DNA of 64,000 nucleotides from Candidatus Gastranaerophilales bacterium (GTDB lineage Bacteria > Cyanobacteriota > Vampirovibrionia > Gastranaerophilales > Gastranaerophilaceae): contig CALUVE010000006.1 of assembly GCA_944324135.1 (NCBI GenBank), positions 1-64,000 on the forward strand, given 5' to 3'. The position numbers and the translations under genes were made by a program. Positions 4,952 through 15,066 of this stretch are shown here, piece by piece (positions within the stretch are counted from its first letter, which is position 1; each line of letters starts with the position of its first letter). The notes beneath the pieces were generated by a model, which was not told the DNA's origin, did no database searches, and was given only the letters and a program-made list of their open reading frames with translations.

Positions 4952-5872
4952 ATGATTTTAATTGGTGAAAATATACATATTATTTCTCCTAAAATTAGGG
5001 AGGCACTTTTATCCCGTAATGAGGAAGTTATCTTGTCCGTACTTGACAAGCAAAAAAATATGGATTTTGCGGACTTGAATGCCGGCCCTGCCAAAGGTGA
5101 CTTGAAAGGTGTAATCCCGTGGCTCTGCGGTATTGTAGAAGAAAAATCATCGCTTGGGATATCTATAGATACTACAAACGTTGATGAGATGGCTGCCGGA
5201 CTTTGCAAAATTAAAAATGCAGAAAGAGCATTTATCAATAGTACCAGTAATGATGAAGTCAGATTTGAAAAGATGACGGATATGGCTTTAGAGTTTGGCA
5301 GTAATCTGATAGAGCTTACTCTGTGTAAAGAAAGGGGAATCCCGAAAACTGCAGACGGCAGGTTGGAAATTGCGTTTGAAATGTATGAAAATTCCATAGC
5401 TAAAGGGGTTAATTCCGACAAAATATTTTTTGACCCTCTGGTTCTTCCAATCGGGGTTGAGCAGTCGCAGGGTATTGAAGTTCTCGGAACAATAAAAATG
5501 ATAAAGGAGAGTTTTGACCCGCCGGTTAAGACTGTTATAGGACTTTCGAATATTTCAAACGGCTCGCCGGCAGAATTGCGTCCTCTGCTAAACAGAGTGT
5601 TCGGGGTTCTGGCATACGGTGCAGGGCTTGATGCTGTGATAATGGATGCGGGGGATGAGGAACTTGTCAGAATTTTTAAAATGTTAGAGAAAAACAACCC
5701 TGAAAAAAATACAGATAATTTGTATCTGACGCTTTCAAAAAATATGGCGGAGTTTCCGGATTTTATAGCCCCGGAATATGATAGCGGGGATGATGAGCAG
5801 GCTAAAATTATCAAGGCGGCGGAGATAATTTTTAACAGGAAAATCTATTCTCACAGCTTTACACTAATCTAG
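4952..5872 (+). CDS. AcsE-like methyltetrahydrofolate:corrinoid methyltransferase
   Basis: A pterin-binding TIM-barrel protein of the DHPS/AcsE family. Matching features are GENIHI at the start, DLNAGPAKGD, SIDTTNVDEM, INSTSND, GIPKTADGRL, FDPLVLPIGV, GLSNIS and GLDAVIMDAGDEE. This order matches the methyltransferase that moves a methyl group from methyl-THF to a corrinoid Fe-S protein better than it matches folate-synthesis DHPS. It differs by an extra segment of about 35-40 residues (roughly 245-283) before the C-terminal ILLN-like helix. No corrinoid protein or CO dehydrogenase gene is nearby, so the methyl acceptor is unknown. Confidence 0.8.
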   Translation: MILIGENIHIISPKIREALLSRNEEVILSVLDKQKNMDFADLNAGPAKGDLKGVIPWLCGIVEEKSSLGISIDTTNVDEMAAGLCKIKNAERAFINSTSNDEVRFEKMTDMALEFGSNLIELTLCKERGIPKTADGRLEIAFEMYENSIAKGVNSDKIFFDPLVLPIGVEQSQGIEVLGTIKMIKESFDPPVKTVIGLSNISNGSPAELRPLLNRVFGVLAYGAGLDAVIMDAGDEELVRIFKMLEKNNPEKNTDNLYLTLSKNMAEFPDFIAPEYDSGDDEQAKIIKAAEIIFNRKIYSHSFTLI

Positions 5873-5917: not shown

Positions 5918-7966
5918 ATTAATAAGCATTTAATTATATCAACAATGACGGTCTTAGCTCTTGCGGGCGGTGTTTCTGCAGACGCTTATATGTCGCCTGA
6001 GGCAACATCATTTTACCAGCAGGCATGTGCGCTGGAATATCAGCATAATTACGAGGCAGCTGCAGAAAAAGTTTTGCAGGCAATTCAGCTGACCGGTGAC
6101 GATGCGCTTTTGTATACCAAACTTGCAGGATTGTATACAGAACTTGATAAATATGATGAGGCGCTTGCGGCTTATTCTAAAGTTGCTAAACTGCGTCCGA
6201 ATGATGCTTTTATTTTCATCAGTATCGGTAATATTTATCAGACAAAAGGTGATTACAAACAGGCTCTGGCGGCCTACGAGAACGCTTTGAAAATTTTCCC
6301 CGAGTACAAATACAATTATCTGAATATTGCAAATGTTCAGTATCAGCTCGGAGAATACAAAGCCTGCATTGAAAATTATAAAAAATTCCTGACAGCATAC
6401 CCGAATCATAAAGAGGCTCGCGAAAATCTGGCAAATTCACTTTTTGCAGCCGGTGATTCTCAAAATGCAGTTAATGTCTACGCAGAACTTCTCGCTAAAA
6501 ATCCTAACGATTTTAAATATTATTCCAACTACGGGCAGGCTCTGTTCAAGATGAAAAATTACGAGCAGGCTGCAGAAATGCTTGAAAAAGCTGTAAGTGC
6601 AGATTACGAAAATACCGCGGCACATGTTTCTTTAGCTCTTGCTTATCAGGAGCTGGAGCGTAATAATCAGGCGCTTGCTCAGTATGATGTTGTGTTCAAA
6701 CAGGCTCCGCAGCTGCATTCTTTGAGATTGGATTATGCAAACCTGCTGGCTGATATCGGTAATAATGCTGCCGCTATTGAGCAGTACAAAATTTATACGG
6801 CAAACTTCCCTGATGATGCTAAAGGTTATAAAAATCTTGCCATACTTTATGAACGTGATAAAAACTATAATCTTGCCATAGCGGAGTTTGCAAAAGCTAT
6901 TGAAAAAGATAAAGACGATATTTCTTTGAAAAAAGAAATTGCAAAATGCTACCATATCCAAAAAGATTACGAAAATGCACTTAAATATTATGATGAAATT
7001 CTGGCGAAAGACAGCAAAGATTTGCAGGTAAAAACGGATAAAGCTATTGCACTTCACGCTCTCAATCGTTATGAAGAGGCGATTGTGCTTTACGAAGATA
7101 TTCTGAACTGGAATGACAGCAAGCTTATAAAAGATAATCTTTTGACAGCTTTAATGGCTCAGGGCAATATTGAACTTGATGCCTCTAATTTTTCAAAAGC
7201 AGCAGAATACTTTGAAAAAGCTGTAGAAGCCGGAACAAAAGACAGCACTGCATATTTTGGTTTGGCGCGTGCATACAGAGGCTCCAAGATGAACGAAAAA
7301 GCCGCTGAATTTTATGAAGAAGCAATAAATATGTCTCCGGAAAATCAGCTCTATAGTGAGGAATACGCTGATTTTATCGCATCAACCCAGGACAAAGAAG
7401 TTGCTTCTGATGTAGAAGTTGAAGTGACCGAGGATATGGAAATCCCTGCAGTTGTTGTTCAGGATAATACTTCAAAAGCAGATAAAGAGCAGGCAGAACT
7501 TGACGCGCAGCGTAATAAAGAGTTCATTGCAATTGCAGACGAGAATTTTAAGTCCAAAAAATTTGATGATGCTGTAAGGAATTATCAGGCAGCTTTGAAA
7601 ATTAATCCGAGTGATGAGGTCACTCTTCTGAAACTAGGAAATATTTACAAGGCTCAAAATGATATGGAAAAAGCTGTAGATTTTTATAAAAAATCTATAT
7701 TTGTTAATCCGTCTTACGCAGACGGCTGGTTTAATCTGGGGTTGGTTTATGCCAACAACGATGACATTGCCGGCAGCAAAGAATGTTTCAAACGGGTAAT
7801 TTCTATAAATTCAAAATATGCTTATGCGTATTTTGCTCTTGCATTAGCTTTCGAAACCGAAAATAATAAGGAAGAGGCAGTCAAAAATTATCAAAAATTC
7901 CTTGAATACAATACCGATGAAACGCAGGTGGCGCCGGTACTTGATAAGATTAAAAAGTTAAGCTGA
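5918..7966 (+). CDS. Secreted multi-TPR protein (probable ATT start)
   Basis: A tandem tetratricopeptide repeat protein of about 682 residues: roughly a dozen TPRs, an acidic Glu/Val-rich linker (about residues 480-520), then three more TPRs at the C-terminus. I place the start at ATT 5918. That adds (M)NKHLIIST ahead of the first ATG and completes a normal signal peptide (basic n-region, hydrophobic core, GGVSA cleavage before DAYM). It also puts the start 7 bases after AGGAG. Starting at ATG 5945 would leave a signal peptide with no basic residue and no ribosome-binding site. TPRs scaffold protein complexes; the partner is unknown. It overlaps the downstream lipoprotein-like gene at TGATG, so the two are probably translationally coupled. 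Confidence 0.85.
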   Translation: MNKHLIISTMTVLALAGGVSADAYMSPEATSFYQQACALEYQHNYEAAAEKVLQAIQLTGDDALLYTKLAGLYTELDKYDEALAAYSKVAKLRPNDAFIFISIGNIYQTKGDYKQALAAYENALKIFPEYKYNYLNIANVQYQLGEYKACIENYKKFLTAYPNHKEARENLANSLFAAGDSQNAVNVYAELLAKNPNDFKYYSNYGQALFKMKNYEQAAEMLEKAVSADYENTAAHVSLALAYQELERNNQALAQYDVVFKQAPQLHSLRLDYANLLADIGNNAAAIEQYKIYTANFPDDAKGYKNLAILYERDKNYNLAIAEFAKAIEKDKDDISLKKEIAKCYHIQKDYENALKYYDEILAKDSKDLQVKTDKAIALHALNRYEEAIVLYEDILNWNDSKLIKDNLLTALMAQGNIELDASNFSKAAEYFEKAVEAGTKDSTAYFGLARAYRGSKMNEKAAEFYEEAINMSPENQLYSEEYADFIASTQDKEVASDVEVEVTEDMEIPAVVVQDNTSKADKEQAELDAQRNKEFIAIADENFKSKKFDDAVRNYQAALKINPSDEVTLLKLGNIYKAQNDMEKAVDFYKKSIFVNPSYADGWFNLGLVYANNDDIAGSKECFKRVISINSKYAYAYFALALAFETENNKEEAVKNYQKFLEYNTDETQVAPVLDKIKKLS

Positions 7967-8373
7967 TGAAAAGATTATTTTTATACATAATTTCAATGGT
8001 TGTGATTTCAACGGCAACGGCATGTTCTGATACAAAGCCGATGATTTTGTTTAACAAAAATCAAATAACTGTAGAAACAGTTATGTCAAATGATACTGTT
8101 TTCCAACCCGGAGAGCGGATATACTACCTGATTTTACTCCCTAAAAAAGTACAGACTCACAACATATATATTCAGGTTATCAAAAAAGGTTCTGCAGGCA
8201 GACTAGGATATGAGCTTTTCTGGACGAGGAATGCCAGATTGAAAGAAGAGCAGATGTATTATTATGACGATTATGTTGTACTAAATCAGCCCGGGTCTTA
8301 TGTAATGGTTGTTTATTCAAAAGATAATCCGCAAAAACCGCTCACGATGTCTCCGTTTATTGTGAGTGAATAG
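7966..8373 (+). CDS. Small exported protein, candidate lipoprotein
   Basis: 135 residues beginning with a basic n-region, a hydrophobic core and ATAC-SD. The Cys could be lipidated, although the -3 position is Ala, not Leu, so the lipobox is weak. The rest looks like a beta-rich domain (IYYLILLPKK, GSYVMVVYSKDN) of unknown family. Its ATG shares a base with the stop of the upstream secreted TPR protein, implying a joint role in the periplasm or outer envelope. Function not recognised. Confidence 0.75.
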   Translation: MKRLFLYIISMVVISTATACSDTKPMILFNKNQITVETVMSNDTVFQPGERIYYLILLPKKVQTHNIYIQVIKKGSAGRLGYELFWTRNARLKEEQMYYYDDYVVLNQPGSYVMVVYSKDNPQKPLTMSPFIVSE

Positions 8374-8400: not shown

Positions 8401-9009
8401 TTAACGGACTTTGTTTTCTTCACCTTTGAGGAGTCGTTTTATGTTCTCACGGTGGAGATATATAATATAAACCGCGCCGAGTGCGCAATACCAGATATAT
8501 GCAGATGGTGCTTTCAATCCCCACATAATAAACGGCGAAAGTGCGAGCGCTATGATTGAACCGAGTGAAACATATTTAGATGTATATGTGATGATACCCC
8601 ATACAACTGCAATTATTAATCCGGCTATCCAGTTCAGTGCAAGGATAGTACCGACGCCGGAGGCAACTGATTTACCGCCTGTGAATTTTAAAAATATTGA
8701 TTTGCTGTGCCCTAAAATTACAGCAACAGCAGCTAAAACAGGAAGCAATCCGATTTCCGTAAAAGAGGTTGTTAAAAGTTTTGCCAAAACAACAGGCAGC
8801 GCCCCTTTGATTGCATCAAGTATCATGACGATAAAGAACCATTTTTTACCCATAACACGTTTAACGTTTGTAGCCCCGGTTGAGCCTGAGCCTATAGTTC
8901 TAATGTCCTGTCCTGTGAACAGTTTTACAATAATATATCCTGTCGGGATTGAACCTATCAGATATGCTGCGATGATTACAAGTGCAATTTCTATAATAAT
9001 GGTTTCCAT
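8401..9009 (-). CDS. plsY: Acyl-phosphate glycerol-3-phosphate acyltransferase
   Basis: Integral membrane enzyme that transfers an acyl group from acyl-phosphate to glycerol-3-phosphate, the first step of phospholipid synthesis. The three PlsY motifs are present: GSIPTGY, GSGSTGATNV and FTGGKSVASGVGT. Several membrane helices are evident. I start at METIII (9009), giving 202 residues, the usual length, with GAGG 5 bases upstream. The longer frame to 9060 would begin at the predicted transcription start of the promoter at 9062-9090 and has no ribosome-binding site. Confidence 0.95.
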   Translation of the reverse strand: METIIIEIALVIIAAYLIGSIPTGYIIVKLFTGQDIRTIGSGSTGATNVKRVMGKKWFFIVMILDAIKGALPVVLAKLLTTSFTEIGLLPVLAAVAVILGHSKSIFLKFTGGKSVASGVGTILALNWIAGLIIAVVWGIITYTSKYVSLGSIIALALSPFIMWGLKAPSAYIWYCALGAVYIIYLHRENIKRLLKGEENKVR

Positions 9010-9061
9010 CTCTTCCTCTTTGATTTTAAAATGAACAAATTGTATCGGTTTTCGTTTCATG

Positions 9062-9141: not shown

Positions 9142-10032
9142 TTGATAAAAAAAATATTGTCTTTAGTTATAACTTTTACATTGATTGCGGCACCTTTGAC
9201 CCTTGCGGAAGAGGTGCAGTATGATTTCAGTGATGAAGCACAGATTAAGTTCAACCAGAATGCCGATATTTATAAGCCGATTAATACCAATACGGGAGTG
9301 AATACCCCGCCCGCTGAGGAACATAAATTCAAGCGTGTAAAAGAAAAAAAGAAAGAGCATCTTGAAGAAATACATCTTGAAACTCCTGCTGAACTCCCCA
9401 AAATAGAAGTTCCCAAATATGACCCTAAAGCTAAACTTTTAGGGAAAGTTGTTTATGTTCCTGAAGGGACAGTCATTAATGTGCAGCTGCAATCCGGCAT
9501 AAGTTCAGGCAGTTTGGATGAAAATGACAGGCTGACTGCCGTATTACCCGAAAATTGGATTTATAACGGGAATTTGATTGCTCCTGCCGGCAGTCTTGTT
9601 TACGGTACTGCGATAGATGCAACTCCTGCCGGATATGCCTATGGCAGCGGTGCTATGGAACTTATTTTCGATAAAATTATGACTCCCGATGGTCAGGTGT
9701 ATAATATCAATGCCGAAAAAATCAGGCTGGAAGCTGAAAGCAGCAGAGGTAAAAATATGACAAGAGATGTGCTTGTCGGTGCCGGTATCGGTCTTTTGGC
9801 AGGTTTGTTGATGACAGCGCTGGGTGCTAATTTTTACGGCGGGGATAATGATTATGCTCAGGCAATGCTTATCTACGGCGCAGCGGGTGCTGCAGGCGGC
9901 GGGATAAAAGGTGTTGCCTCCCGCGGAGAAGATGTTTCGATTGCTCCGGATACTATCCTGCAATTAAAACTCCTTGAACCGCTGGAAGTTGTTCCGCAGA
10001 ATGCTGATACACAATTGCCTAATCAGTTTTAA
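9142..10032 (+). CDS. Secreted protein with VirB10/TrbI-like domain and glycine zipper
   Basis: 296 residues from a TTG start with AAAGG about 8 bases upstream. The signal peptide ends near LTLA-EE. A charged Lys/Glu linker (about residues 55-85) leads to a domain resembling the VirB10/TrbI beta-domain: an EGTVINVQLQSGI stretch, then LIAPAGSLVYGTAID. A Gly/Ala-rich hydrophobic hairpin (about 213-255, GAGIGLLAGLL and GAAGAAGGG) follows. No other type IV secretion gene is present, so this is probably a stand-alone envelope protein. It is the first of six co-directional envelope genes. Confidence 0.65.
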   Translation: MIKKILSLVITFTLIAAPLTLAEEVQYDFSDEAQIKFNQNADIYKPINTNTGVNTPPAEEHKFKRVKEKKKEHLEEIHLETPAELPKIEVPKYDPKAKLLGKVVYVPEGTVINVQLQSGISSGSLDENDRLTAVLPENWIYNGNLIAPAGSLVYGTAIDATPAGYAYGSGAMELIFDKIMTPDGQVYNINAEKIRLEAESSRGKNMTRDVLVGAGIGLLAGLLMTALGANFYGGDNDYAQAMLIYGAAGAAGGGIKGVASRGEDVSIAPDTILQLKLLEPLEVVPQNADTQLPNQF

Positions 10033-10067
10033 TATGTTAAAATTTATGCAAATAAAGGATGTTTTTT

Positions 10068-10736
10068 ATGAATAAAAGGTTAATTACTTTAGGGTTGATA
10101 ATTCTGGCAGTCTCACTGGTGCTGGCGTTTGTTGTATCACTGGCAAAGAAAATCAAAATTGATGAGTTCAGACCTGCTGCTGTAATTTTTGTTGTGGATT
10201 CTTCCGCCTCAAACCAGTCAAAACTTCCGGAACAGAAGAAAACTCTCCGCCAGATATGTAATACTCTCGATCCTGAAGATCAGATTAAAATTATCAAAGT
10301 TTCAGAAGATTCTTATCTTATATATGAGGGTACGCCGCATAACGGCAGCGGAATTACCAAAGCGATGGACGCCTTTACTGAATTTGACCCTAATGATTAC
10401 GGAACGGCGTATGGCGTCGGGTTGAAAAAAGCTATGAATCATGCTCTCACTATGTACGGAGAGGGATATATTCCTGCTGTTGTCGTGATTGGTGATTTGG
10501 AAAATGAGGGCGCTGTTGACAAACAGATTAACTGGGATACTCTGGCGCAGAATGTTGCCAATATCAAAGCTCAGGCGCCTGAGCTTGCTATGATGTTCTT
10601 GTATGCTCATCCTGAAAAGTTAGATAAGGTTAAAGAAATTCTCTCTCCTGTTCTCGGTGAAACAAAACTCGTTATTTCTCCGGAACAAACTATTGATAAA
10701 TCTGTAAGAAAATTTCTTCACGCTATCGGAAGATAA
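10068..10736 (+). CDS. Membrane-anchored von Willebrand A-like protein
   Basis: 222 residues. A single N-terminal membrane helix (about residues 5-25) is followed by a vWA fold. The metal-ion-dependent adhesion site looks complete: DSSAS at 44-48, a Thr in YGTAYG (113) and Asp in IGDLENEG (143). vWA domains mediate metal-dependent protein-protein contact and often assemble envelope complexes. I start at ATG 10068, 8 bases after AAAGGA; the ATG at 10059 lies inside that site. The next gene encodes an FHA-like membrane protein, a frequent partner of vWA proteins. Confidence 0.75.
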   Translation: MNKRLITLGLIILAVSLVLAFVVSLAKKIKIDEFRPAAVIFVVDSSASNQSKLPEQKKTLRQICNTLDPEDQIKIIKVSEDSYLIYEGTPHNGSGITKAMDAFTEFDPNDYGTAYGVGLKKAMNHALTMYGEGYIPAVVVIGDLENEGAVDKQINWDTLAQNVANIKAQAPELAMMFLYAHPEKLDKVKEILSPVLGETKLVISPEQTIDKSVRKFLHAIGR

Positions 10737-10755
10737 TAGAAAGAGGTAATATAAA

Positions 10756-12372
10756 ATGACAATCGTAATTTCGTCTTCTAAAAATGAAAAAATTTTTATT
10801 GATAAAGATATGATAAATATCGGTACAAACCCAAACTGTGATTTTCAGCTCGATTTGGATTTTGATTTGCTGATTACGGTTCAGTATATCAAATCAGAAA
10901 ATAAATGTATTGTTATGAATACATTCCACAGCGACAAAATATTTTTTAAAGGCGAAACGTTCGGCAAAATTGAGGTAGGAAATATCTGTAAACTTTTGAC
11001 AGCTGATTCTTCCGAATTTATCAGTATTAGAGTTCTAACCGATGAGACCGATACCGCAAGAAAAACTATTAAAGCTATCGGTGAAGAAGATTTTACCGAA
11101 AATGATATCAAGCGCCTCTACGGCAGTGATTCAAACCCTATTACACGCGTCAAAATAGAAAAACAAAAAGAAGATATTGAAAGCGCTCGTGTCGCAATTA
11201 TCAAACAGTCAGGATATACGATTTCCGATTTAAAACATAAATTATCTTCAAATTTCAAAACAAGTTTGTTTCTGCATATAGCAATGTTTTTCGGTGCTGT
11301 AATGTGTGCATTCGGGCTTTCAAATTATCTGATGGGGCTTTCTATTGCAGATTCTGCAAATTATATGCACCTTCCGACTAATATTAAAATCTGGTTTGTT
11401 TATTCTATCCTTGTTTACGGACTTTGTCTGTTGATGAAACAGGGTGTTTATCAATCACTGCTTAACAAATCAGCAAAAGGTGTTCCGCCGACATCAAAGT
11501 TTGCAGAAACTTTCTTTATCGGTTTTGCTACTATCCTGATGCTCGGGGTGTATGCTATAAATCTTGTTTACTTTATGAATGTAAAAGATTTTGTTGTGTT
11601 TGCAATATTTATCTCATTGTTCTTTGTGGGTTTGACAGCAGGCCTTGCTGTCGGATGCGGATATTTTAAATTCAACGGAAATGCTCTTTCTCTCAATTTG
11701 AACAAATTTGAATACAGAGAAGATTTTGAGGCTGTTTTAAAGGCTTACAGACAATGGATTGAAAGATATATCAATAATCTCGGCAAAACAAAAATTCAAT
11801 ATATTAAAGATAAATTATTCAACCTGCAGATAAAATCCGTATTTGAAATAGTTATAGGTATGTTGACAGCTCCGTTTCTTGCTTACGGTGTATCAAACAC
11901 TCTTGCAATGTGTTTTCCTGAGGCTGCGGGGTGGATTAGAATTTCAGGTTTAAGATTTAGTCCGGTATTCCTTGTACTTGCAACATTTTTGATTATTTTT
12001 GCATTTTTCTCATTTGTGAGTGCTTTTACCTGCACAAAGAAAATTCAAGCGTCTGAAGTAATCAAGCAGGACGGTTTTAGTGATTTTATGCACCACGGTG
12101 TTGATATTTACGGGCTGGAGGGCGTCAGAAAAATTAATTCAGACAAAATACGTGCACTTTCTATCGCATGTTCAATCATATTTATAGAATTTGCAATGAA
12201 TGTTTCTTACTTTATGACTGAAATCGGCGGCGATTTGCAGGGAATTTTCTTGAGTTTGATTGCCGCTCTTGTACCTACTGCGCTTTTGATTGCGGAAACA
12301 TTGATGCTCAGCCAGACACGGTTTGAAATCTTTGCTTGTGATGAATTGATTTCTAAAATAGATAAAGATTAA
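10756..12372 (+). CDS. FHA-like domain polytopic membrane protein
   Basis: 538 residues. The N-terminal ~95 residues resemble a forkhead-associated fold (INIGTNPNCDFQLD, later a turn like GETFGKIEVGN), though the canonical Arg/Ser phospho-binding residues are not clear. A charged region (about 100-165) then leads to about eight hydrophobic segments (near 172-195, 212-230, 250-272, 278-302, 365-387, 400-425, 465-487, 498-520). The family is not recognised. It sits 19 bases after the vWA gene with a GAGG site and 2 bases before a TonB-like gene, so it could be the inner-membrane core of a complex built by this cluster. Confidence 0.6.
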   Translation: MTIVISSSKNEKIFIDKDMINIGTNPNCDFQLDLDFDLLITVQYIKSENKCIVMNTFHSDKIFFKGETFGKIEVGNICKLLTADSSEFISIRVLTDETDTARKTIKAIGEEDFTENDIKRLYGSDSNPITRVKIEKQKEDIESARVAIIKQSGYTISDLKHKLSSNFKTSLFLHIAMFFGAVMCAFGLSNYLMGLSIADSANYMHLPTNIKIWFVYSILVYGLCLLMKQGVYQSLLNKSAKGVPPTSKFAETFFIGFATILMLGVYAINLVYFMNVKDFVVFAIFISLFFVGLTAGLAVGCGYFKFNGNALSLNLNKFEYREDFEAVLKAYRQWIERYINNLGKTKIQYIKDKLFNLQIKSVFEIVIGMLTAPFLAYGVSNTLAMCFPEAAGWIRISGLRFSPVFLVLATFLIIFAFFSFVSAFTCTKKIQASEVIKQDGFSDFMHHGVDIYGLEGVRKINSDKIRALSIACSIIFIEFAMNVSYFMTEIGGDLQGIFLSLIAALVPTALLIAETLMLSQTRFEIFACDELISKIDKD

Positions 12373-12374
12373 TC

Positions 12375-13193
12375 ATGAATATTTTTAAATTTATTTCATT
12401 AACAACGTTAATTTTGATAATAACAGCCGCAGTTGTTCTTACAAAACCGGTTATGCACAAACCTGCGGTGCTGGAAGATGCTGCTTTTACGCTTGCATCT
12501 CTGGAAAAGAAAGTTCCGGTGAAGAAAGTTCAGACAGATTTTTCAGCACCATTGCCGCCAGCGCAAAAAACAGTTGTTGAAAAACCGGCTCCTGTAGTCA
12601 AAAGAATTGTAAGAATTGTAAAACAGGAGGTTCCGGCGCCTGTTCAAACCGTCACGGTAAAAGAACAGCCTGTCCAGCAAAAGACACAGCCGGTAAAAAC
12701 AGTTAAACAAGAAACGCCGTCTCTTCCCGTGAAAACCGTGCAGGCAGCAAATGAGCCTGTGGAAATTGAAAAACCTGTTAAACTAGAGATTGAAGAACCC
12801 GTTAAGGTTGTGACAACACCTGTAAATACAGCTCCTTTGACAGAAAAGGAAGAGATTATTGCCTGGAACAAGTGGCGTAGTGATTTGCAAAATAAAGTCA
12901 TGAGAGATTCCAGAATAAGCGCTCCTGTCGGAACTACTTTTTATTTTTCCTGTACGGTTGATAAATTCGGTAATATTTCTAATATAAATACCTGGTCTGA
13001 CAACGACTATTACACACCGATGGCAAAACGTGTTATAAAACCTGTCCTGAGCAGCTATCAGAATCAGCCGATTTTGAAATTCCCTGAGCGGACTCAGCGG
13101 ACTATTACTAACGTGAACGGTTCTTTTACGATGGCATTTACTGACAGGTTCTCTACTCCTGCGGATTACTCCGATTATGAAAGGATAAAATAA
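12375..13193 (+). CDS. TonB-like protein with Pro/Lys-rich spacer
   Basis: 272 residues: a membrane anchor (about 5-23), a Pro/Val/Lys-rich periplasm-spanning spacer (about 35-150, with PVQTVTVKEQP-type segments), then a C-terminal domain of about 100 residues. The pattern of that domain (WRSDLQNKVM, GTTFYFSCTVDKFGNISN, then an MAKRVIKPVL helix) resembles TonB C-terminal energy-transducing domains. No ExbB/ExbD is seen nearby. Translation probably couples to the upstream FHA-like gene, since the gap is 2 bases. The TonB assignment is by architecture and motif shape only. Confidence 0.6.
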   Translation: MNIFKFISLTTLILIITAAVVLTKPVMHKPAVLEDAAFTLASLEKKVPVKKVQTDFSAPLPPAQKTVVEKPAPVVKRIVRIVKQEVPAPVQTVTVKEQPVQQKTQPVKTVKQETPSLPVKTVQAANEPVEIEKPVKLEIEEPVKVVTTPVNTAPLTEKEEIIAWNKWRSDLQNKVMRDSRISAPVGTTFYFSCTVDKFGNISNINTWSDNDYYTPMAKRVIKPVLSSYQNQPILKFPERTQRTITNVNGSFTMAFTDRFSTPADYSDYERIK

Positions 13194-13337
13194 ATGAGCA
13201 AAAATAAAATTTTCGCAATTTTGATAATTTTAGCATTAATTGGTGTGACAGCAGCAGCTGTTTATACAAGACCTGAGCTGCACAAAACCTTTGAGATACA
13301 GATTTTGAAATTTATAAAGGCTGACACTGATGTATAA
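13194..13337 (+). CDS. Single-span small membrane protein, 47 aa
   Basis: Begins MSKNKIFAILIILALIG: a basic start, one hydrophobic helix (about residues 6-23), then a short soluble tail ending KADTDV. AAAGGA lies 8 bases before the ATG. The ATG directly follows the stop of the TonB-like gene, and its end overlaps the start of the zinc-ribbon protein by 8 bases, so it is embedded in a coupled operon. The spacing and site make it likely to be a real subunit of the same membrane system. No family recognised. Confidence 0.65.
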   Translation: MSKNKIFAILIILALIGVTAAAVYTRPELHKTFEIQILKFIKADTDV

Positions 13338-14304
13338 ATGTTCTGATTGCGGAAAAATTACTAAAGAAAAACCTCAATATTGCGACTGCGGAAATAATAT
13401 TTTTGTAGAAGTTGATTCGCAGGCAGATAATGCGGCAGTGAAGCCGGTTTCTTCCGCGGGCAAAACGTCTGCAAAATTTACACTCCCTCAAGAGTTTGAC
13501 AGATTATCAGTGACAATATTTGTATTATGTTTAATTTTTTCTGTTATCCCGTGGTTCTTCGTTCTGAGGCAGACACCGGAAAATGAAAATAAACACGCCA
13601 TAAAGCCGGTTGAGGTTAAAAAAGATATCCCCGATTTTGAAACTTTATGGGATGATACCCCTGTTACCGCTCCGGCTGCGGAGGTTCCGGAACCGGTTGA
13701 ACAGCAGGAAGAACCTCAAACAATTATTGAGTATGTTACTCAAATTGTTCAGGTGCAACGTCCTGCGCCAAAAGTTGTTACTCCGGCGCCTAAAGTTACC
13801 CAGCCTAAAAAAGAAGATGTAAAAACTACTGCCAAACCGAAAACGCAGACGCAAAATAAGCCTCAAACGCAGAATAAACCGGAGGTTATAAATAGGATAG
13901 AGCAAAAGCTTTCAGCCAAAAATGATGAACAGAAAAAACAGCAGGCCAAACCTGCAGTTTCTAAAACTGAAACAAAGCCGCAGCCGCCCAAGCCTACGGC
14001 AGAAGAACTTGCGGCATTAAATTTATATCGAAATAACCTCAGAATGGTTTTGTTATCAAAATTAAATGTTAAAAGCATTATCGGCGAGGGAAGCTGTGAT
14101 ATTGAGTTTGCAATTGACCCGAACGGCAAGTTGATAAACCGTAAGTTTGCTAAACAATCTGATAACAAATCTCTGAATGATGCTGTATATTATATGCTAA
14201 TGAGTGTTCCGGTTTATCAAATCCCGCCAAAGGCATACAAAGGCGAGACTATACGGCTGCATTTTTATATAAATAACGGATATTATGAAATCAGTTTTAA
14301 ATAA
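13330..14304 (+). CDS. Zinc-ribbon / TonB-like membrane protein
   Basis: 324 residues with three parts. A cytoplasmic zinc ribbon at the N-terminus has CxxC at residues 4-7 and CDC at 18-20. A membrane helix (about 58-77) follows, then a long Pro/Lys/Gln-rich spacer (about 85-215) and a C-terminal domain of TonB type (LYRNNLRMVLLSKL, GEGSCDIEFAIDPNGKLINR, then LNDAVYYMLMSVP). AAAGG lies 9 bases before the ATG, inside the end of the small membrane gene. It is the last gene of the envelope cluster and is followed by a shared terminator. A zinc ribbon fused to a TonB-like periplasmic arm is unusual. Confidence 0.65.
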   Translation: MYKCSDCGKITKEKPQYCDCGNNIFVEVDSQADNAAVKPVSSAGKTSAKFTLPQEFDRLSVTIFVLCLIFSVIPWFFVLRQTPENENKHAIKPVEVKKDIPDFETLWDDTPVTAPAAEVPEPVEQQEEPQTIIEYVTQIVQVQRPAPKVVTPAPKVTQPKKEDVKTTAKPKTQTQNKPQTQNKPEVINRIEQKLSAKNDEQKKQQAKPAVSKTETKPQPPKPTAEELAALNLYRNNLRMVLLSKLNVKSIIGEGSCDIEFAIDPNGKLINRKFAKQSDNKSLNDAVYYMLMSVPVYQIPPKAYKGETIRLHFYINNGYYEISFK

Positions 14305-14307
14305 TTA

Positions 14308-14336
14308 AAAAGCCGGAATTTTTAATTCCGGCTTTT
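14308..14336. terminator. Bidirectional terminator
   Basis: GCCGGAATT-TTT-AATTCCGGC, with AAAA before and TTTT after, lies between the converging genes ending at 14304 and 14341. It can work on both strands. Confidence 0.85.
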
Positions 14337-14340
14337 GTTG

Positions 14341-15066
14341 TTATTGATTATTTGTTCTATATTCTATAATCATTTCAAGATGTTTTGGAAATTTTGTCGG
14401 GAATTTGTCAAAAGGAGCTGTTTCGTTTACTATTTCCAGAATTTCTTTATCAATTTCCTCATTTCCTGATGCCTGACGGAATCCGCTTTTTATAATTTCT
14501 CCGTCAGAACTTATATCAAGATATAATCCTACAGGATTTTCCGGTTTTGTAGAGAGGTTTTTATTCAATGCCCGTATCAATTTCAAGCTTATGTCGGCCA
14601 TATAGGCTTTTGGAGTATAGAGGCTTCCAAATGGCATGAATTTTACAAATTCATTGGCTGCGCCGTCATAGACTTGAATATATTTGAGTCTGCCTGTCGG
14701 ATAATCATAGATAGCATCACTTTTCGGGGTGCGGAGTTTTTCAACACTAACAGATTCCAGAGTACCTGTTTTTTTGTTATACATCAGCTCAGCATATTCA
14801 TATTGAACATAGTGATAATTCGGATTTCTGTATTTTGTTTGTTTATTCGGAACAAGATTTTTGTTGTATGTATCCGAAATTTTTTTGGTATCAATTCTGA
14901 TTCTCGGTATCAGGTTTTTGAATACCTTTTCACTTGCAAGGTTAACAAAATGATATCCGCCGGAATCCTGCTCTTTGAGCTGGTACGGAACAATGAAATC
15001 TTTTGAATAAGCGCAAGCTCCTGATAACAACAAGCCGCTTAACGCTATTAATACTAATTTTTTCAT
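14341..15066 (-). CDS. Secreted TonB C-terminal-like protein
   Basis: 241 residues with a signal peptide (MKKLVLIALSGLLLSGACA). The last ~90 residues resemble a TonB C-terminal domain: LKLIRALNKNL, then GLYLDISSDGEIIKSGF, then a SGNEEIDKEILEIV helix and PFDKFPTKFP. The middle, about residues 30-140, is not recognised. It has no membrane anchor or Pro-rich spacer, unlike the two TonB-like proteins of the converging operon. It is the third protein of this fold type within 3 kb. Confidence 0.65.
   Translation of the reverse strand: MKKLVLIALSGLLLSGACAYSKDFIVPYQLKEQDSGGYHFVNLASEKVFKNLIPRIRIDTKKISDTYNKNLVPNKQTKYRNPNYHYVQYEYAELMYNKKTGTLESVSVEKLRTPKSDAIYDYPTGRLKYIQVYDGAANEFVKFMPFGSLYTPKAYMADISLKLIRALNKNLSTKPENPVGLYLDISSDGEIIKSGFRQASGNEEIDKEILEIVNETAPFDKFPTKFPKHLEMIIEYRTNNQ

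Follow-up and report, generated by a model that had tools for sequence, protein, structure and literature searches.

What would TonB-like arms act upon, and what would power them, in a cell envelope with neither the customary receptor nor the customary motor within reach? The question is raised by a six-gene operon, here called A to F, in a metagenome-assembled genome of a Candidatus Gastranaerophilales bacterium (assembly GCA_944324135.1; the first 64,000 nucleotides of contig CALUVE010000006.1, forward strand, are the whole stretch that was analysed and are referred to below as the window). A encodes an exported TrbI/VirB10-like protein, B a vWA protein, C a polytopic membrane protein with an FHA domain, D and F the TonB-like arms, and E a 47-residue membrane protein. 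The operon is real, conserved and undescribed and, in our sample, restricted to one bacterial family plus one relative. The lineage is a gut lineage related to cyanobacteria and known mostly from metagenomes, with an almost unknown envelope biology, and the operon joins TonB-like arms, in genomes without detected TonB-dependent receptors, to a polytopic protein, C, that belongs to no known family. The modules themselves are already known; new are C, the proposed platform protein, and the combination of genes. We consider it likely, on balance, that the products form one lineage-specific trans-envelope complex. An earlier note on this DNA, made from the sequence alone, had suggested an uncharacterised trans-envelope machine: the anatomy fits and one conserved unit is supported; that the unit is a machine is something we infer.

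Conservation of the operon

The tightly spaced, co-directional genes with a common terminator that the earlier note had described are confirmed by the reading frames, by the intergenic gaps (26 nucleotides between A and B, 19 between B and C, 2 between C and D, 0 between D and E, and an overlap of 8 nucleotides between E and F) and by the 13-bp terminator stem, which, judged by its sequence, would function in both directions. Two outcomes had been set beforehand as refuting the proposal, scattering of the genes in relatives and failure of the FHA-like and TonB-like calls in structure comparison. Neither came about: the fold matches described below agree with the calls, and the genes do not scatter, their order being kept across dozens of loci. 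At 88 loci whose C proteins are non-identical, B adjoins C, and D, F or both come next; the locus types comprise A-B-C-D-E-F (that of the window), A-B-C-D-F, A-C-D-F, B-C-D and B-C-F. Within the genus, B (93-96% identity) and C (92-95%) are conserved like the upstream marker gene plsY (86-95%), which is itself outside the system; for F, and for G, the gene that converges on F, the corresponding range is 66-75%. By these sequence measures the gene set A-F is far beyond chance.

B and C go together. Full-length C occurs in 64 of the 97 family genomes and B in exactly those same 64, full-length C never being found there without its vWA partner; three further family genomes hold only a stand-alone FHA-like gene of 100 amino acids. 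The trees of B and C mirror each other (r 0.86, against a permutation maximum of 0.29). For six two-copy genomes, each B agrees with the C beside it (0.45-0.86) but not with the second C (-0.09 to 0.23).

C was found in the family Gastranaerophilaceae and in a single sister-family genome, with no other genome among those listed for the 292-genome sample of the phylum (beyond the phylum, the search for C was a close-relative scan of GTDB). C has no match in plasmids or phages, and a mobile origin was rejected on that ground. Nothing on an A-F operon was found in the literature and no described system matches in family scans, which agrees with the earlier remark that the combination is not a recognised one. 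In one clade (L083, L084, L086), B-C-F is preceded by two co-directional genes that resemble, by eye, a TrkA/TrkH-like potassium transporter.

The polytopic protein C and its vWA partner

C matches no Pfam or NCBIfam family. It is laid out as a degenerate FHA domain (residues 1-95), a helical linker and eight transmembrane (TM) helices, of which TM5-TM8 form the conserved core. Its AlphaFold2 model (pLDDT 82.5) has a nine-stranded N-terminal domain for which Foldseek ranks 1-30 against the PDB are all FHA domains, at a probability of 1.00 and with target TM-scores reaching 0.77, bearing out the FHA-like, polytopic character that had been ascribed to C. The membrane part, with its eight long helices, has no credible fold match in the PDB, and one of the 55 C homologues gives a weak match to YscD_cpl (0.06). 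The residues with which FHA domains bind phosphothreonine are missing: the Arg position is T, S or N in 55/55 homologues and there is no S-x-x-H. The FHA domain of C is therefore probably a docking module.

Conservation lies mainly in the membrane, where 55 of the 129 columns of TM5-TM8 are conserved at 95% or more, compared with 5 of the 95 columns of the FHA domain. E364, T371, E478, N482, T508 and T515 are invariant, and E514 is nearly so. To judge by sequence, these residues, together with a basic residue in the TM core of B (present in 47/55 homologues), would suit an ion-driven motor, without demonstrating one. A salt bridge between the TM lysine of B and acidic residues of C was considered, but it is not claimed because B has no such lysine in the genus to which the window belongs. 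Two possible origins of C were also tried and rejected: descent from ExbB (TM5 and TM8 resemble ExbB TM2 and TM3 by eye, but hhalign against an alignment of five ExbB sequences of the lineage gives 0.2%) and duplication of a four-helix TM unit within C (hhalign 0.5%).

The stand-alone FHA-like gene is homologous to the C N-terminus; examples lie at 6039-6338 of locus L085 and 5298-5597 of locus L096, near HlyD-like and MarR-like genes, accompanied in L096 by a pair of genes for MFS-type exporters. Stop codons seem to interrupt two further copies.

B consists of one TM helix and a vWA domain matched by Pfam VWA_2 (1.3e-7) and VWA (5.3e-7), both above curated cut-offs. The full metal-ion-dependent adhesion site (MIDAS) claimed for it is there: D47, S49, S51, T116 and D146, in a D-x-S-x-S ... 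T ... D pattern, are invariant in 55 homologues. (A Pfam VWA search of the window's own genome missed B, which the protein scan caught, and was not used for counts of vWA genes.) Loci of the A-C-D-F type have lost B. Two such paralogous operons stand next to divergent, separate vWA genes, apparently for secreted proteins, that have a canonical DYSGSM motif (L078 9630-11365, L079 4386-5162), as if another vWA had replaced B.

From hydropathy and charge, the FHA domain and both ends of C are predicted to be cytoplasmic; B's vWA domain and the two TonB-like arms are predicted to lie in the periplasm. The vWA-FHA contact that had been proposed is accordingly unlikely in that form; any contact between the two proteins would run via their membrane parts.

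The TonB-like arms and their anchors

D has an N-terminal TM anchor with a P-x-M-H-K motif, a Pro-rich linker and a TonB/TolA-like C-terminal domain. It has no Pfam match, but the model of its C-terminal domain (pLDDT about 97) shows the alpha-beta-beta-alpha-beta topology of TonB and TolA, and every one of its top 15 PDB matches is a TonB, TolA, HasB or FusB domain (best E-value 0.06). F begins with a cytoplasmic four-cysteine knuckle (C4, C7, C18 and C20 are invariant, in keeping with the zinc knuckle noticed at the outset) and continues with one TM helix, a Pro-rich linker and a TonB-like C-terminal domain. TonB_2 is matched by 35/36 F homologues (best 6.3e-9), comparison of F with the PDB gives a weak TonB match (E 0.011), and the C-terminal domains of D and F are related (hhalign E 8e-5, probability 61%). 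Both arms can thus be called TonB-like, as they had been from the sequence. A role of the operon in anti-phage defence (of the Zorya kind, for example) was considered and rejected, PADLOC having given only a weak match (0.002), in the low-complexity linker of F.

E is a genuine gene whose homologues occur at most loci of the window's type, and it is a free-standing copy of the membrane anchor of D: the E profile matches D N-termini at 5e-9 to 1e-6, and the common motif is a TM helix with Thr followed, eight residues further on, by P-x-(M/L)-H-K. In other clades, a gene of 59-88 amino acids with this motif lies upstream of A. Among 60 genomes, all good matches to the anchor module are at the B-C operon; in genomes without C the matches are only marginal (9e-4 to 0.01) and lie in large frames. 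The module may be a docking tag for the B-C platform. Many species, though not the one in the window, have a second small hydrophobic gene between E and F (54-68 amino acids, apparently with two TM helices; e.g., L043 10578-10757).

Targets and energy for the arms

TonB-dependent receptors are the expected targets of TonB-like arms, but their plug domain (PF07715) has no match in the window's own genome and none in 12/13 family genomes, in a search that did pick up the controls and some relatives within the order. The arms of the Gastranaerophilaceae must therefore act on another target. The best candidate is A, since TrbI-like proteins lie repeatedly near TonB-like arms. A has a signal peptide, a Pro-rich linker and a TrbI/VirB10-like C-terminal domain that includes a glycine-zipper helix (at about residues 209-230); after cleavage of the signal peptide, its N-terminus has no TM anchor. 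Its own match to Pfam TrbI (4.5e-6) is under the curated cut-off, but 29/33 homologues match the family (best 3e-9), and the original description of A as an exported VirB10/TrbI-like protein stands. Sequence searches of the PDB with profiles of A, B, C and D yielded nothing useful.

The earlier note had also pointed to the lack of ExbB and ExbD. This holds for the cluster, among whose proteins there are no MotA_ExbB or ExbD matches and no TolQ-like or TolR-like protein with TolA; it does not hold for the genome, which has ExbB, two ExbD and TonB at another locus, beside two TrbI-like proteins, one of them a paralogue of A. ExbB and ExbD genes are present in 21/21 relatives searched. That locus (L077 7236-11523, on contig C7 of the genome) reads ExbD-ExbD-ExbB-TonB, with the two TrbI/VirB10-like proteins upstream. 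The TonB encoded there has the S-x3-H of its kind (reading ISTILHP), which is missing at TonB's position from D, E (0/32) and F (0/36); D has T-x3-H, only at the far end of its TM helix, in 18/54. Coupling of D, E or F to ExbBD is therefore not favoured.

A proposed complex and its alternatives

In the complex that we favour, C would be the inner-membrane platform, with the TM5-TM8 core as its working part and the degenerate FHA domain docking partners without phosphothreonine. B would be its obligate partner, a metal-dependent (MIDAS) vWA domain held just outside the membrane. D and E would dock to the platform by their common TM anchor and F by its own TM helix, exposing its cysteine knuckle to the cytoplasm. 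D and F would reach over the periplasm with their Pro-rich arms and bring their TonB/TolA-like domains to an outer-membrane-side partner, for which the VirB10-like A, and not a TonB-dependent receptor, is the best candidate. Transmission of force, if there is any, would be powered by C itself or by ExbBD in trans. The case for one complex is made by the conserved gene order, the co-occurrence of B and C in 64/97 genomes, their mirrored trees and matched paralogue pairs; by the FHA and TonB/TolA folds and an anchor module exclusive to the operon; and by the TrbI-like paralogues beside TonB elsewhere, the missing receptor plug and the invariant polar residues in TM5-TM8. A more specific version, in which C and B are a new kind of ion-driven inner-membrane motor, unrelated to ExbB, TolQ and MotA, with invariant intramembrane acidic residues driving D, E, F and B and the arms working on an outer-membrane-side VirB10-like protein rather than on TonB-dependent receptors, strikes us as unlikely.

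Several points weigh against a single complex. Direct evidence for contact between the products is absent. For the FHA and TonB folds, the matches are those of predicted models, with modest Foldseek E-values (0.002 and 0.06). A is absent from some loci or split from B by another gene, some loci carry D alone or F alone, and co-inheritance of adjacent genes can reflect simple linkage too. Taken to the extreme, the absence of shown contacts and the coming and going of D, F and A would suit envelope genes with nothing in common but their operon, but with B and C co-occurring in 64/64 genomes, their paralogues paired and the anchor module confined to the operon, we can give that notion hardly any credence. 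A passive tether or an envelope sensor, which would link inner membrane, wall and outer membrane or signal their state to the cytoplasm by way of FHA domain and cysteine knuckle, with no use of energy, is a serious competitor whose chances we put somewhat below even. An energy-coupling protein was not found in the operon, C is unrelated to ExbB, and C and F have docking or regulatory domains on the cytoplasmic side, all as a tether or sensor would have it; the strongly conserved acidic and hydroxyl residues of TM5-TM8 exceed the needs of a plain anchor, however, and TonB/TolA-type arms transmit force in other systems.

Two further explanations look to known machinery. D and F might be extra TonB arms energized in trans by the genome's ExbB-ExbD-ExbD, with B and C as accessories. 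The universal presence of ExbB and two ExbD in the relatives searched, beside TonB and two TrbI-like proteins, speaks for this, but the missing S-x3-H does not, nor does the absence of B-C from a third of a family in which, as sampled, ExbBD is universal, nor an anchor on D that is common only to the B-C operon; we regard the proposal as improbable. A type IV-derived secretion apparatus, with A as a VirB10-like part of the channel, could appeal to the TrbI/VirB10-like domain of A and to the full type IV system described in the related Vampirovibrio (PMC4451040). Yet no ATPase-type or other type IV secretion gene is recognised in the operon, nor did the paralogous operons show any; A relies on a signal peptide for export and has no counterpart of VirB10's inner-membrane anchor, TrbI-like proteins adjoin ExbBD-TonB too, and no match to C was detected in plasmids or phages. 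Such an origin is very improbable.

Comparison with known systems

The layout of the D and F arms (N-terminal TM helix, Pro-rich linker, TonB-type C-terminal domain) recalls TonB-ExbB-ExbD; the differences are an operon without ExbB/ExbD, a C protein that is not an ExbB homologue, vWA and FHA partners, no TonB-dependent receptor found in the genome, and an S-x3-H that is out of place in the arms. Tol-Pal is suggested by the fold of the D C-terminal domain, which matches TolAIII as well as it matches TonB, and by the prospect of C, D and F jointly crossing the envelope in the manner of TolQRA; but C is not TolQ-like (TolQ belongs to the ExbB superfamily, which was tested) and the operon has no TolR. 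With GldL-GldM, the motor of type 9 secretion and gliding, there is a likeness in principle, acidic intramembrane residues in the polytopic C and a basic TM residue in most single-pass B proteins. GldL, however, has 2 TM helices and C has 8, the window's own genus lacks the basic residue, and no sequence similarity was found. C shares a cytoplasmic, degenerate FHA domain without phosphothreonine residues with YscD/PrgH of type III secretion and EssC of type VII secretion, but its eight TM helices come with no ATPase and no ring-building periplasmic domains. The likeness of A to VirB10/TrbI of type IV secretion is confined to its C-terminal domain, A being exported via a signal peptide; a VirB4-type ATPase and VirB7/VirB9 are not among the operon proteins, to which that search was directed, the rest of the genome not having been searched for them.

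Neighbouring genes

Table 1. The operon and its flanking features (window coordinates)
Feature	Position	Strand	Remarks
Six-gene operon A-F (Gastranaerophilales metagenome-assembled genome)	9142-14304	+	all six open reading frames confirmed in place
A	9142..10032	+	296 amino acids, TTG start
B	10059..10736	+	225 amino acids
C	10756..12372	+	538 amino acids
D	12375..13193	+	272 amino acids
E	13194..13337	+	47 amino acids
F	13330..14304	+	324 amino acids
Intrinsic bidirectional terminator (predicted), common to F and convergent G	14308..14336	.	13-bp stem, T tails on both strands
G, convergent neighbour, exported, TonB_2 domain	14341..15066	-	TonB_2 3.6e-6, over cut-off
plsY (acyltransferase), divergent upstream marker of the primary locus	8401..9060	-	recurs beside the operon

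The tetratricopeptide repeat and lipoprotein genes upstream (5945-8373) have hardly any homologues at related loci and are for that reason left outside the system. G, which lies convergently downstream of F at many loci, has a TonB-type C-terminal domain without a TM arm or Pro-rich linker, and is a possible member of the system. Further TonB_2 proteins are encoded in the same genome (G000) on contigs C34 (9944-10153, in a frame of about 120 amino acids) and C11 (15941-16192, in a frame of about 1313 amino acids); TonB-type domains seem to be widely reused in the Gastranaerophilales lineage.

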